Positions 23,652 through 31,289 of a stretch of DNA of 64,000 nt are shown here, in pieces. Made by a program: the position numbers and the translations under genes. The notes beneath the pieces are model-generated. The model was not told where the DNA came from, ran no database searches, and saw only the letters and a program-made list of their open reading frames with translations. Positions within the stretch are counted from its first letter, which is position 1. Every line of letters starts with the position of its first letter. The DNA lies in the NCBI RefSeq assembly GCF_038624605.1, contig NZ_CP152020.1:930001-994000 (forward strand). Reading direction: 5' to 3'. The stretch comes from Psychrobacillus sp. FSL K6-4046. Lineage in GTDB: Bacteria; Bacillota; Bacilli; Bacillales_A; Planococcaceae.

Positions 23652-25205
23652 ATGAGTTTAGTGACACACGTTCAACAAAGGGCCTTAAAAAATCCAGACA
23701 AAATTGCTTATCATTTTATGGGAAAAGACACTACTTACGCAGAATTCAATCAGTCGGTAGAGCGCTTTGCGGCTGCTTTACATTCATTAGGGGTAGAAAA
23801 AGGGGATAATGTAGGGTTTCTACTTGGAAATTCTCCACACTTCTTAATTTCTCTTTATGCAACCATGCGTTTAGGTGCAACCGCAGTACCGATTAATCCA
23901 ATATACACACCAGATGAAATTAGCTACATCGTGAAAAACAGTGACGCTAAAGCTATTATTGCCTTAGATGCGTTTATACCACTAGTAGAAAAGGCAGCTG
24001 GTGTTTTTTCAACAGTAGAAAACTATATTATCTGTGAGACCGATCCATCAACAGCTGACAAGCTTGCAGCTCTTCCAGCTACCTTAAAGCCTAAGGTGAA
24101 ATCGTTTACATATTTGATTTCTACAGCAGTGGAAGCAGTACCTCATGTGGAAGTTCATTCAGATGACACAGCTGTCATTCTATACACATCTGGTACTACT
24201 GGACACCCTAAGGGAGCAATGCTGACATTTAATAATATTTACTCGAACGCTCGTGACGTTGCCGAGTATTTAAACTTCAGCACAGACGACCGAGTAATAG
24301 CGACACTTCCCGTATTCCATGTATTTGCATTGACGGTTGTAGTAAATGCACCATTATTAATGGGAGCTACTATTCTATTAGTTCCTAGATTCAGTCCACA
24401 GGAAGTGTTCCATGTTATTAAGGAGCAAGAGGCAACTGTCTTTGCTGGCGTACCAACGATGTTCAACTTCCTATACCAATTCCCAGAAGGAAAGGTAGAA
24501 GACTTCTCTACGATTCGTTTAGCGATTTCTGGAGGATCTTCCTTACCGGTTGCTTTATTGCACAACTTTGAAGACAAATTTAAAGTGCGTATATCGGAAG
24601 GATATGGTTTATCAGAGGCTTCTCCAGTAACTTGCTTTAACCCAATAGATCGTGACCGCAAGGCAGGATCCATTGGAACTTCTATAGTTAACGTAGAAAA
24701 CAAAGTAGTGAATGAGCTAGGGGAAGAGGTACCGGTAGGAGAGGTTGGCGAACTGATTGTTCGTGGACCGAACGTCATGAAGGGCTATTACAAGATGCCT
24801 GAAGAAACGGAAAATGCTATTCGGGGTGGCTGGCTTTATACAGGTGACCTAGCTCGTCAAGACGAGGAAGGGTATTTCTATATCGTTGACCGTAAAAAGG
24901 ATATGATCATTGTCGGGGGCTATAATGTTTATCCTCGCGAGGTAGAGGAAGTATTATTTGCGCACCCTGGTATCGTGGAAGCAGCCGTTATCGGCGTTCC
25001 AGACCCTAACTTTGGAGAAGAAGTACTTGCCTTCGTTGTAAAAAAGGATGAATCCTTAACGGAAGAGCAGCTTCATGATTATTGCGCTGAAAAACTAGCA
25101 AAATATAAGATTCCAAAAAGCATAGAATTTTTAGAGGAGCTTCCAAAAAATACGACTGGTAAAATACTACGTCGTACATTGAAGCCAACATCCAAAGCAA
25201 AATAA
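23652..25205 (+). CDS. lcfB: Long-chain fatty acid-CoA ligase LcfB
   Basis: A 517-residue ANL-superfamily acyl-CoA synthetase, the size of B. subtilis LcfB (YhfL). Motifs are the P-loop YTSGTTGHPKG (about 177-187), GYGLSEASPV (about 318-327), YTGDLAR (about 395-401) and the C-terminal lysine in PKNTTGKILRR. It activates fatty acids with ATP and CoA for beta-oxidation or lipid synthesis at the membrane. GGGAG precedes ATG 23652. A FadR-type box sits in the promoter. It stands as a single transcription unit ending in a strong terminator. Confidence 0.92.
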   Translation: MSLVTHVQQRALKNPDKIAYHFMGKDTTYAEFNQSVERFAAALHSLGVEKGDNVGFLLGNSPHFLISLYATMRLGATAVPINPIYTPDEISYIVKNSDAKAIIALDAFIPLVEKAAGVFSTVENYIICETDPSTADKLAALPATLKPKVKSFTYLISTAVEAVPHVEVHSDDTAVILYTSGTTGHPKGAMLTFNNIYSNARDVAEYLNFSTDDRVIATLPVFHVFALTVVVNAPLLMGATILLVPRFSPQEVFHVIKEQEATVFAGVPTMFNFLYQFPEGKVEDFSTIRLAISGGSSLPVALLHNFEDKFKVRISEGYGLSEASPVTCFNPIDRDRKAGSIGTSIVNVENKVVNELGEEVPVGEVGELIVRGPNVMKGYYKMPEETENAIRGGWLYTGDLARQDEEGYFYIVDRKKDMIIVGGYNVYPREVEEVLFAHPGIVEAAVIGVPDPNFGEEVLAFVVKKDESLTEEQLHDYCAEKLAKYKIPKSIEFLEELPKNTTGKILRRTLKPTSKAK

Positions 25206-25209
25206 CAGA

Positions 25210-25241
25210 AACTGCCTCCTGAAATGGGAGGCAGTTTTTTT
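25210..25241 (+). terminator. Terminator after lcfB
   Basis: AACTGCCTCC pairs with GGAGGCAGTT around a short loop and is followed by seven T. Confidence 0.9.
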
Positions 25242-25277
25242 AGTGGGAATTAAAATATAGTGCACATGTGTAAATCT

Positions 25278-25602
25278 AGTTGAATCGAGAGAGATACTGA
25301 TTGATTGTAGTAATCTATGGATTGATTGTCGTAAAGTAGCGTGGGATTGTAGTAAAACACGGACCCATTGTCGTAAATTTAGTTGGACCGAGAGAGTTGC
25401 TAATCGATTGTAGTAATCTATGGATTGATTGTCGTAAAGTAACACGGGATTGTAGTAAAACACGGACCCATTGTCGTAAATGTAGTTGGATTGAGTAAGT
25501 TGCTGATCGATTGTAGTAATCTATGGATTGATTGTCTTAAAGTAGCGTGTGATTGTAGTAAAACACGGACCCATTGTCGTAAATTTAGTTGGATTGAGTA
25601 AA
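25278..25602. repeat. Three tandem 103-bp repeats containing a 21-bp-phased motif array
   Basis: Units begin at 25278, 25381 and 25484, each 103 bp, with a 16-bp start of a fourth at 25587. Inside each, four copies of an 11-bp motif (GATTGTAGTAA alternating with GATTGTCGTAA or CATTGTCGTAA) begin exactly 21 bp apart: 25303, 25324, 25345, 25366; 25406, 25427, 25448, 25469; 25509, 25530, 25551, 25572. The gap between groups is 40 or 41 bp. Frames across the array are not conserved as protein. It lies between lcfB and the S9 peptidase gene, both on the plus strand. Confidence 0.9.
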
Positions 25603-25797
25603 CCGCAGAGTATTGGGTGTTTGGGTAGGAAGACGGTTTATTGCTCATCTCCTGAAATGCGTTTGCCTTATGAAGAGATCAACTTTGCTTAATGTTAAAT
25701 ATGAAAATATTCATGTAGCATTCTTTTTTTCGGGAATTAAAGGAAAATGATTTATAATGTCGAAATAAGAAAGACAACAAGAAAGCGAGGAAAAATA

Positions 25798-27774
25798 ATG
25801 ACTAAAAGACGGTTAGAAGCAAAGGACTTATTTAAACTGCAATCTATTACAAATCCTGTAATTTCTCCATCAAATAAGGACGCCTTATTTATTAGAACTG
25901 AAATGAATGAGAAGGATAATAAATACTATTCTTATTTGTATCATGTAGATTTAGAGACAGATGAGGTGGCCCAGTGGACACATCTGAAGGAACGTATATC
26001 ATCACCATGTTGGTCCAAGGATGGAAAATACATAGCGTTCTTGTCTAGTCGAGATGACAAAAACCAACTCTTCCTTTTATCGTCTAAGGGTGGCGAAGCA
26101 AAGAAGCTAACCACTTTTGAAAAAGGAATCTCAAGCTTCCACTGGTCTCCTTGCAGTAAAAAAATCTGGTTTGTCGCGCCTTTAAAAGAGGGGAAAAGCT
26201 GGACAGACGACCCTGAAAAAGAAGAAAACAAGCATCCCGAGGCATATGTTGTAGATAAGATGAAATATCATTCAGACGGAGTAGGGCTATTGCCAAAGGA
26301 TACGTATAGACAGATTGGAATAATCGATATACAAACAGAGGAAGCTGTACAGTTTACGGAGGGAAATCATCAGCACAGCCTGCAGGCAGTCTCACATGAT
26401 GGCAAGAAAATAGTAATGGGAGTAAATAGAGAAGAAAACCAAGACTTTTCATTTAAACAACCTTTGTATTTAGTAGATGTGGAATCGAAGGAAGAGAGCT
26501 TATTAATAGATGAAGAGGGATATTTCGGAGGCGCTGCTTTTTCACATGAAAATGACTATGTTGCTTTTGTAGGATCAAATAGAACTTATGAAAATGCAAC
26601 ACACGATGAAGTATATATTTATAACGTTCAAACAGGTGTAAGAGAGGCCTTAACAGAAGGAATTGATGCTCCAGTCGGAGATTATTCCGGAGGTGATTTA
26701 CAGCAAGGAGCAAGTGCACCAAGTATAGCCTGGACAAAAGACAACTATGTATATTTTCAGCTCTCTACTATGGGTGACGTCCGCCTCTATGTAGCTTCCT
26801 TAGAGGGAGAGATCTATCCAGCCACACCTGAAAACGAGCATGTTTATGGATATGACGTTGCGAAAGATGGCACATTTGCACTTGCCACGATAAGTAATTC
26901 AGTATTTCCCGGGGAATTATTTAAGCTTAATTTGACGACTGGGGAGAGAAAAGCACTAACTTCATTCAATGAACAGCTTTTGGAAGAAATAGAACTTGTC
27001 GAACCAGAGGCGATTGTTTATAAGGGAGCTAAGGACTGGGATGTTCACGGGTGGCTGATGAAGCCGGCTGGTTTTGAGGACGGAAAGAAATACCCGCTAA
27101 TTGTAGAGATTCATGGTGGTCCCCATACGATGTATGCAAACACGTTCTTCCATGAGCTACAGTTATTGGCGGCTAAGGGATACGGAGTGCTATATGTAAA
27201 CCCAAGAGGTAGTCATTCGTATAGTCAAGAATTTGTAGATGCCGTAAGAGGTGACTATGGTGGTGGAGACTATGAGGACATTATGGCAGGCGTTGACTAT
27301 GTGTTGTCAGAAAACGATTGGATTGATAATGATCGTCTAGGAGTAACAGGAGGAAGCTACGGTGGTTTTATGACGAACTGGATTGTCGGTCATACAAATC
27401 GCTTTAAGGCAGCTGTAACCCAGCGCTCTATCTCTAACTGGGTTAGCTTTTACGGCGTTTCCGATATAGGATATTATTTCACACCTTGGCAAATTGGTGG
27501 AGATATGACGGATATTAATAAACTTTGGGATGCATCTCCATTAAAATATGCGTCTCAGGTGGAAACTCCGTTACTTATTTTGCATAGTGAAAACGACTAT
27601 CGTTGTCCAATAGAGCAAGCTCAACAGTTGTATATTACTTTAAAGGGAATGGGGAAAGAAACAAGCTTTGTACGTTTCCCGCAAGCAGATCACAATTTAT
27701 CGCGTGTCGGGTTACCAAATCTACGGCAAACGAGACTCGAACAAATTACGGGATGGTTTGAAAAGTATATTTAA
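25798..27774 (+). CDS. yuxL: S9 family prolyl oligopeptidase-like peptidase (YuxL-like)
   Basis: A 658-residue cytoplasmic serine peptidase of the prolyl oligopeptidase/acylaminoacyl peptidase family. An N-terminal beta-propeller (about 1-390; repeated WSPDGK-like blades) is followed by an alpha/beta hydrolase domain. The catalytic triad is Ser520 in GGSYGG, Asp600 in SENDYRCP and His632 in ADHNLSR. It probably degrades short peptides or removes acylated N-terminal residues. ATG 25798 is preferred, 5 bp after GCGAGGAAA, over the longer frame from 25747. The length matches B. subtilis YuxL. Confidence 0.88.
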   Translation: MTKRRLEAKDLFKLQSITNPVISPSNKDALFIRTEMNEKDNKYYSYLYHVDLETDEVAQWTHLKERISSPCWSKDGKYIAFLSSRDDKNQLFLLSSKGGEAKKLTTFEKGISSFHWSPCSKKIWFVAPLKEGKSWTDDPEKEENKHPEAYVVDKMKYHSDGVGLLPKDTYRQIGIIDIQTEEAVQFTEGNHQHSLQAVSHDGKKIVMGVNREENQDFSFKQPLYLVDVESKEESLLIDEEGYFGGAAFSHENDYVAFVGSNRTYENATHDEVYIYNVQTGVREALTEGIDAPVGDYSGGDLQQGASAPSIAWTKDNYVYFQLSTMGDVRLYVASLEGEIYPATPENEHVYGYDVAKDGTFALATISNSVFPGELFKLNLTTGERKALTSFNEQLLEEIELVEPEAIVYKGAKDWDVHGWLMKPAGFEDGKKYPLIVEIHGGPHTMYANTFFHELQLLAAKGYGVLYVNPRGSHSYSQEFVDAVRGDYGGGDYEDIMAGVDYVLSENDWIDNDRLGVTGGSYGGFMTNWIVGHTNRFKAAVTQRSISNWVSFYGVSDIGYYFTPWQIGGDMTDINKLWDASPLKYASQVETPLLILHSENDYRCPIEQAQQLYITLKGMGKETSFVRFPQADHNLSRVGLPNLRQTRLEQITGWFEKYI

Positions 27775-29983: not shown

Positions 29984-30370
29984 ATGGCGGAAACAGAAAA
30001 AATAACAATTAATATGAACGTAGTGGATTTAGGAAAGGTAGACTTACTCGTAGAACAAGGCTTTTATTCGAACAGAACGGACTTCATCAAGTCCTCTATT
30101 CGAAGCCAACTAAACACACATGCGCAAGTAATCGATCAAGCAGTGACAATGAGAGCATTTACGATGGGGGTAAGCTACTACGACAAAGATACATTAGAGC
30201 AATTATCAAAGCAAAATAAAACGCTATCTATTAAAACGATTGGTATGCTCATCCTAGCAAATGACATAGACCAAGAGCTAGCGCTAAAAACAATTAGCTC
30301 CATAAAAGTGCATGGAGTATTCAAAGCCTCTTCAAAACTTAAAGAAGCACTACAACCATTGATGAATTAA
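29984..30370 (+). CDS. CopG/ribbon-helix-helix family protein
   Basis: A 128-residue protein. Its first 45 residues (EKITINMNVVDLGKVDLLVEQGFYSNRTDFIKSSIR) have the strand-helix-helix pattern of CopG/Arc-type DNA-binding proteins, where the strand of a dimer reads the major groove. The remaining 80 residues are predicted helical and of unknown role. No toxin gene is adjacent, so it is not evidently an antitoxin. It may regulate its own promoter. It ends at a bidirectional terminator. Confidence 0.72.
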   Translation: MAETEKITINMNVVDLGKVDLLVEQGFYSNRTDFIKSSIRSQLNTHAQVIDQAVTMRAFTMGVSYYDKDTLEQLSKQNKTLSIKTIGMLILANDIDQELALKTISSIKVHGVFKASSKLKEALQPLMN

Positions 30371-30931: not shown

Positions 30932-31234
30932 GCAAGGTTCCGCCCCATCTGCAAGGTTTGGGGTGAATTGTGCAAGGTTCTTCCTCGTCTCTGCAAGGTT
31001 GCGAAGGATTAGCGCAAGGTTTTCCTTCATTTCCGCAAGATTTCGTATCGTCTTCGGTTAGCGCAACACTTTATAGGATATCCGCAACACTTCCAGAATT
31101 AGCGCAACACTTCACTCAATATTCGCAACACTTATCATTCGTGCAACACTTGCTGCGATATGCGCAACACTTTATAGGATATCCGCAACACTTCCAGAAT
31201 TAGCGCAACACTTCGTACTATTAGCGCAACACTT
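30932..31234. repeat. Intergenic array of 15 short motifs phased at 21 bp
   Basis: Six copies of GCAAGGTT (the last is GCAAGATT) begin at 30932, 30951, 30972, 30993, 31014 and 31035. Nine copies of GCAACACTT begin at 31063, 31084, 31104, 31125, 31143, 31164, 31185, 31205 and 31226. Almost every step is 20-21 bp (exceptions 19, 28 and 18). A 53-bp block (31061-31113) recurs identically about 101 bp later (31162-31214). Spacers differ otherwise. No coding potential fits the period. It lies between two minus-strand genes. Confidence 0.9.
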
Positions 31235-31289
31235 ACCCCATAAGAGCACCTTCCACAAAAAAGAGCCCCCTTCACGAGGAGGATTACTC

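Follow-up and report, generated by a model that had tools for sequence, protein, structure and literature searches.

The chromosome of Psychrobacillus sp. FSL K6-4046 carries dozens of intergenic arrays in which a motif of 8-10 letters returns at a step of about 21 letters, or two helical turns, while the spacers between the motif copies drift. Five motif sets share this layout: F1, GCAACACTT (F2a), GCAAGGTT, TTTAYGGG (F3) and ACCGACCG (F4); GCAACACTT and GCAAGGTT could be variants of a single motif. That several motifs use a single layout points to a DNA element of a kind so far undescribed, one that binds protein or spreads by itself. Our preferred reading is a tentative one, to which we would give a little less than an even chance: the arrays are phase-constrained sites for one or more putative DNA-binding proteins beyond gene ends, with a boundary role and with selection on motif and phase.

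The array in the window and its neighbourhood

The window, that is, the whole stretch of 64,000 nucleotides analysed here, covers positions 930001-994000 of a 3.89 Mb Psychrobacillus genome in one contig (G000). Its F1 array consists of 12 copies of the 11-bp motif (S)ATTGTMGTAA, located from 25303 to 25582 in three groups of four, with steps of 21-21-21 bp within each group, then 40 bp, and a period of 103 bp. The initial annotation had described 12 motifs at 21-bp spacing in 103-bp repeats, and all the start positions it gave were exact; the gap between groups, given there as 40 or 41 bp, was 40 bp each time and never 41. TRF returned a period of 103 with 3.2 copies (25270-25598). The autocorrelation of the array was 0.92 at 103 bp, with the spacers coming back once per unit. 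Nine motif pairs at 21 bp (at most one mismatch) were detected in the window versus none in 100 dinucleotide-preserving shuffles. One of the 12 motifs, at 25530, carries a substitution, and every fourth motif has C instead of G as its first base. All motifs of the array point one way, and no inverted pairs of at least 10 bp with arms at most 60 bp apart were found in 25260-25610. The features of the window referred to in the text are:

23652..25205, + strand: upstream gene, AMP-binding enzyme (ORF list, domain annotation); context, outside the array
25207..25241, + strand: terminator-like hairpin of the upstream AMP-binding enzyme gene, about 30 bp before the array, with its T run on the + strand
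25270..25602, + strand: F1 phased array, 3.2 units of 103 bp, 12 motifs, 21/21/21/40-bp steps (motif search, TRF, shuffle control)
25270..25302, + strand: partial leading unit, tail of a fourth-motif stretch (compared with 25373-25405; TRF start)
25303..25405, + strand: unit 1, motifs at 25303, 25324, 25345 and 25366, then a 29-bp tail
25406..25508, + strand: unit 2, motifs at 25406, 25427, 25448 and 25469, then a 29-bp tail
25509..25602, + strand: unit 3, truncated at its end, motifs at 25509, 25530 (one substitution), 25551 and 25572
25798..27774, + strand: downstream gene, S9 prolyl-oligopeptidase family, with an earlier in-frame start at 25747 in the ORF list; context, outside the array
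29984-30370: gene for an RHH_8 (PF17723) ribbon-helix-helix protein, near the second window array
30932..31045, + strand: F2b phased array, GCAAGRTT six times at 19/21/21/21/21 bp
31063..31235, + strand: F2a phased array, GCAACACTT nine times at 21/20/21/18/21/21/20/21 bp, best superperiod 101 bp

Helical phase was inferred from spacing at 10.5 bp per turn. On this basis the earlier claim that all motifs lie on the same side of the helix holds within the groups of four but not across them: the 103-bp unit corresponds to 9.8 turns, so that each group is shifted by about 0.2 turn and the motifs share one face strictly within groups only.

The terminator-like hairpin upstream of the array is also called on the minus strand (25237-25209), and about 150-200 bp separate the end of the F1 array from the S9 peptidase gene. 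Both flanking genes are metabolic, with no par or rep gene adjoining. Transposases were absent among the genes beside this array and beside the second window array, the two whose neighbours were annotated (together with one group II intron near another array). In the sister species (G002) both flanking genes are present at the same locus and the array is absent, the aligned flanking blocks lying 85 bp apart versus 481 bp in G000. Judged from these alignments, the difference may be either a gain in G000 or a loss in G002, since G002 carries F1 arrays elsewhere. The RHH_8 gene is located about 4 kb from the F1 array and is present in five of the 19 Psychrobacillus genomes. Its product was rejected as the F1 binder, the gene being missing from G002, which has F1 and F2 arrays; that is, the sole candidate binder checked does not follow the array distribution in the 19 genomes.

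F1 and the other motif sets across genomes

Across G000 we found 103 F1 motif pairs (65 forward, 38 reverse; none in the reversed control), which among the matches listed were spaced at 21 bp throughout. In the fetched stretches of this genome, 15 F1 arrays with 196 motifs were identified (at most two mismatches), and a further F1 array is located at 3.351 Mb. The steps comprised 144 of 21 bp, 29 of 40 bp and eight others (17, 19, 22, 39, 41, 42, 45 and 47 bp). Best autocorrelation was at 103 bp in 10 of the 11 F1 arrays of at least 165 bp and at 124 bp in the remaining one. The occurrence of F1 pairs on both strands, in the numbers given above and counted without reference to the origin, makes a polar replication motif less likely.

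Among 19 genomes of Psychrobacillus, which is not known to be a pathogen, F1 pairs were present in three that represent two species, namely G000, a second genome of the same species (G011) and G002; none were found in the other 16. The relatives for which the initial annotation had proposed to search therefore exist at other loci of G000, in G011 and in G002. It had also named neutral tandem duplication, recognizable by missing relatives or by drift out of phase, as the alternative. With relatives present, with the spacer sequence lost and with the step kept (144/147 single steps between 17 and 26 bp in G000 are of 21 bp), a lone neutral duplication is a poor account. In a genome collection comprising 84,980 species by its own description, from which records very near the window's genome were possibly omitted, 34 of the 64 F1 stretches came from G011 and G002, and 30 from outside Psychrobacillus. 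Only 2-3 motifs each were counted in 28 of these 30; the other two, L082 (11 motifs) and L051 (six), show multiples of 21 bp within an open frame. In the draft genome G011, at least 13 contigs have array motifs at most 200 bp from a contig end (e.g. L142, L145-L148). Thus, short-read assemblies probably break at the arrays, which conceals how many copies there are.

For other motif sets we employed a detector that reports any 8-mer recurring at least four times at 17-23 or 36-44 bp. Applied to 400 kb of G000, sampled at round coordinates outside the known F1 and F2a arrays, it returned five merged clusters (six before merging), and none in a block-shuffled copy. These clusters comprise three motif sets besides F1 and F2a. 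The GCAAGGTT set is also present in the window, and GCAAGRTT and GCAACACTT arrays adjoin each other at L108 and L111 as well. Pairs of GCAACACTT number 49 in G000 and were found in three of 250 family genomes; F1 and F2a occur in two species. For GCAAGGTT, 90 pairs were detected in G000, and four of the 19 genus genomes carry the set, one of them with a single pair. TTTAYGGG pairs, 97 in G000, were present in eight of the 19 genomes (reversed control: three in all); five genomes have at least four (90, 97, 23, 16 and 4) and three have 1-2, the four pairs of G006 being located at three places. ACCGACCG gave 40 pairs in G000 and occurs in two of the 19 genomes, both of one species. The steps of F2a, F2b and F3 include 18, 19, 20 and 22 bp. 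At L338 (G000:574324-574987), a TTTAYGGG array is followed by a ACCGACCG array within 700 bp.

The detector found no array of at least four copies in G012 and G009 (200 kb each) or G015 (100 kb), while 200 kb of G003 gave one 36-bp repeat and, at three copies, a TTGGTTGC triplet. In G014, another Psychrobacillus species (100 kb; arrays at L314:2348-3113), we detected TTGCGCAT ten times (42/42/18 bp) and a TTGCGATT array. Twenty genomes of 18 other genera (365 kb) yielded five clusters, two of which look like members of the phased-array class: CGCGGGTA five times at 21 bp in G049 (L334:16179-16275) and TATTTGCG 25 times at 20/21 bp in G052 (L335:15049-15568). The remaining three were 36- or 18-bp repeats or weak, and the class outside Psychrobacillus is made up of the one G049 array and the arrays of one 20-kb G052 piece. 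The arrays of G014 and G052 contain TTGCG. Open frames cross the G049 and G052 arrays (126 aa and 176 aa, TTG starts, with more frames open in G052), so that coding is still conceivable for these two; the G049 array is flanked by two longer ORFs that converge on it.

Best superperiods were 103 bp for F1, 104-106 bp for F3 (4/4) and 101-103 bp for F2a in four of five arrays, with 80 bp in one. F2b arrays gave 103, 124, 124 and 82 bp, those of G014 102 and 113 bp, and those of G052 and G049 41 and 42 bp respectively; this set is without F4, of which no array was long enough. A superperiod near 103 bp is common, not universal.

Conservation, size changes and place of the arrays

Between loci, 12 representative units of G000 differed by 0.9% in the motif, 59% in the spacer and 66% in the long tail, with about 73% expected at random. 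Adjacent units within arrays of G000 and G002 showed 20/1116 differences in the motif versus 144/1054 in the spacer. The A/C position of the motif, different in 20/124 cases, was excluded from the motif figures of both comparisons.

We then compared orthologous arrays of two strains. Seven arrays, whose orthology rests on flanking DNA and whose motif sites were chosen by similarity in G000, which lowers the apparent motif change, differed in 8/590 motif positions (1.4%), 40/484 spacer positions (8.3%) and 75/2379 flank positions (3.2%; motif versus flank P=0.017, spacer versus motif P=4.5e-8, spacer versus flank P=2.6e-6). A first comparison with 11 pairs had given 67/1099 (6.1%) for the motif, 100/880 (11.4%) for the spacer and 337/8949 (3.8%) for the flank. 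Three of these pairs, cut by contig ends, were dropped because the alignment of their units seemed to be out of register; of the eight left, one was without anchors, probably from an adjoining insertion, hence the seven arrays. Steps of 61 or 63 bp, the mark of one lost interior motif, were absent from G000 at up to two mismatches, and single lost interior motifs were therefore not overlooked there. Half of the spacer differences behind the faster change of spacers than of flanks between strains came from one locus (L102/L141). Exchange between units is a possible source of the fast spacer change.

Large size differences between the strains in the seven orthologous arrays measured 103, 103, 103, 206 and 21 bp, and the small indels in the same arrays comprised one of 5 bp in a tail and two of 1 bp each in flanking DNA. 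Two further loci differed by 42 bp, with one motif in one strain and three in the other, and by 21 bp plus a 1-bp spacer indel. That is, array size changes mostly by whole units. At L104:4375-6262 we observed a group II intron (RVT_1 and maturase domains; Rfam group II matches), located between an F1 array and hairpin-like sequence in G000 and absent there in G011.

To locate the arrays relative to genes, we assigned 53 G000 arrays of all five sets to gap classes with a simple, mechanical ORF caller; 27 lie in convergent, 21 in tandem and five in divergent gaps (one gap, L108, was given two classes). These 53 arrays are no full census: TTTAYGGG and GCAAGGTT places are those among the matches listed, and the detector sample avoided known F1 and F2a arrays. 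Background gaps of at least 60 bp from the 400-kb sample and the window (n=264) comprised 52 convergent, 156 tandem and 56 divergent ones, which corresponds to a convergent excess (27/53 vs 52/264, P=3.7e-7) and a divergent deficit (5/53 vs 56/264, P=0.02). When arrays were merged to about 50 gaps, 25 of these were convergent. In tandem gaps, seven arrays run with and 14 against transcription (P=0.19). Thus, the arrays are over-represented between converging genes, without significant orientation preference.

Explanations of the arrays

With the motif kept, the spacer free, the phase kept, no RNA-fold signal and no orientation rule, an array of binding sites at the DNA level is the simplest account. 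RNA folding of 31 four-motif units (some homologous) on both strands against spacer-shuffled controls gave mean z values of +0.20 and +0.05, and the lack of a fold signal together with the lack of a significant orientation bias favours DNA over RNA as the functional form. For every motif set there would be a dedicated sequence-specific reader, a DNA-binding protein or paralogue, copies of which could sit side by side on one helix face and form a cooperative nucleoprotein patch. Past the gene ends such a patch might act as a boundary, for example as a transcriptional roadblock or insulator, or as a supercoil or nucleoid anchor, rather than as the operator of one gene; this position is easier to reconcile with a boundary role than with regulation of a single gene. 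Recombination between units would let the arrays grow and shrink, and selection for binding would hold motif and phase. Several points weigh against this model. Neutral insertion with loss from promoter regions would give the same convergent excess, spacers outpacing flanks (8.3% vs 3.2%) are unexplained by motif constraint alone, other step lengths occur in F2a, F2b and F3 besides the small 1-bp and 5-bp indels, and the first strain comparison had placed the motif (6.1%) above the flank (3.8%).

The arrays could instead be self-spreading or host-neutral interspersed repeats, a close rival that we regard as quite possible, if somewhat less likely than the first reading. Here, a trans-acting enzyme or recombination would recognize the motif and seed new sites, arrays would persist where they are harmless, between gene ends, and the motif would be kept for the propagating factor, not for the cell. 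The absence of the window array from the orthologous place in G002, the patchy families (two species have F1 and F2a, one has F4, and F3 is more widespread) and the whole-unit size changes between strains are consistent with this, and REP elements are likewise frequent between converging genes, as an excerpt of PMC1525189 states. However, no transposase lies beside either window array, one layout is common to different motif sets, and the spacers have retained their length but not their sequence, something that propagation by itself would not call for. Dispersal and place are accounted for about equally well by self-spreading repeats and by the binding-site reading, and under either of the two some factor should read the motif. 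A structural DNA element, wrapped or bent by a general protein (gyrase, HU or SMC-type) that relieves positive supercoils between converging genes and needs no motif-specific partner, is improbable, even though the helical period and the place between converging genes would suit it and REP elements are discussed in the same setting in the excerpted part of PMC1525189. At nine of the ten motif positions the individual base is conserved, which exceeds what bendability should require, five sets of very different composition share one layout, and the F1 motif is without an A-tract of four, some spacers extending its AA to at least four.

Partition- or replication-type repeats, that is, chromosomal iteron- or parC-like decoys titrating plasmid Rep or ParR, are very unlikely. 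According to a section of PMC9426499, the direct repeats to which ParR binds vary from system to system and are 10, 11, 17 or 20 bp long, but the window array had no match in 72,556 plasmid or 50,697 phage records, which speaks against a plasmid or phage origin of F1. The F1 pair pattern occurs in seven viral-contig stretches, of which five hold 2-3 motifs and two hold four at 21 bp in open frames; for F2a and F4, the pattern search by itself gave 66 viral-contig matches and one, respectively. An antisense promoter array, conceivable for F1 only, would use opposite-strand motif neighbours as -35-like and TACAAT -10-like elements at 17-bp spacing. The tested F1 arrays do contain 52 sigma-70-like opposite-strand pairs versus 6.1 in shuffles, six of them in the window array (25304-25580, minus strand). 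Yet no such excess was seen in the other four motif sets, the -35 elements match weakly (ACGACA), and promoters would be oddly placed at converging gene ends, which makes this reading highly improbable. We consider an RNA-type array (CRISPR- or guide-like, read as processed RNA) extremely unlikely: constant and variable stretches of about 10 bp do alternate, but the spacers recur unit by unit within arrays, and there is no fold signal, no significant orientation bias and a scatter over many loci. Rfam gave no match in the window array and one sub-threshold match outside it. Coding repeats were set aside: 21 is a multiple of three and the window array is crossed by chance ORFs as long as 98 aa, but the TAA of the motif stops one frame, the other sets step by 18-22 bp, and the arrays are located in the gaps between longer ORFs.

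We also compared the arrays with known systems. Iterons are helically phased, and about five sites per 100 bp are reminiscent of iterons and parC. Like plasmid iterons, F1 consists of direct repeats at helical phase; unlike them, it occupies many chromosomal loci, lacks a match in the plasmid and phage records and, in the window, has metabolic genes on both sides without a replication-origin context. The interpretation given in the initial annotation is partly supported: protein binding is a plausible reading, but iterons proper find no support. MIRU/VNTR-type minisatellites are tandem intergenic units whose copy number varies between strains. Our arrays resemble them in being tandem and intergenic with copy-number change between strains, but each unit contains a constant motif, with the remaining sequence diverging from locus to locus. 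In contrast to CRISPR or guide-RNA arrays, the window spacers are not unique and return every 103 bp. In parC, direct repeats are bound by one protein, and ParR binding seeds a solenoid (section of PMC9426499), whereas no parM or parR lies beside the window array, its neighbours being the AMP-binding enzyme and S9 peptidase genes.

Of the known kinds, STAR elements (Staphylococcus aureus repeat) come nearest, but their core and spacing are different. As described in passages of PMC3532100, they are direct repeats in intergenic DNA, with a short core that is conserved and spacers that vary from locus to locus; their copy number is variable, their abundance differs between related species, and these passages describe no function. 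The core given in the same passages is a 14-bp GC-rich T(G/A/T)TGTTG(G/T)GGCCC(C/A) with spacers of at least 40 bp. F1 shares the interspersed intergenic direct repeats and the spacers distinct between loci. However, it has 21-bp steps between 10-bp motifs and a superperiod of about 103 bp, here one layout serves several motif sets, and the STAR core had no match in the 64-kb window at up to two mismatches. REP elements are palindromic repeats of 20-40 bp (excerpt of PMC3733652), extragenic and frequent between converging genes (excerpt of PMC1525189). Our arrays share with REP/BIME the preference for gaps between converging genes (27/53 vs 52/264), but the window array is non-palindromic and its motifs are one-directional. 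Besides STAR, no other papers on such arrays were found among the matches listed from open-licence PMC literature (subscription journals being outside it).

A wider form of the binding-site reading, which we think unlikely, is a Planococcaceae-wide undescribed system. In it, paralogous DNA-binding proteins with fast-changing motif specificity would each coat a set of arrays of their own between gene ends, with about five sites per 103 bp (ten turns), and divide the chromosome into transcriptional or topological domains, and motif turnover would resemble an arms race. Within one genome, different motif sets follow a common helical layout and favour the same kind of place; from species to species, the motifs change. 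A reader protein, if there is one, would represent a new type of factor for chromosomal boundaries or the nucleoid; without one, the arrays would exemplify a repeat with a spread linked to helical phase.
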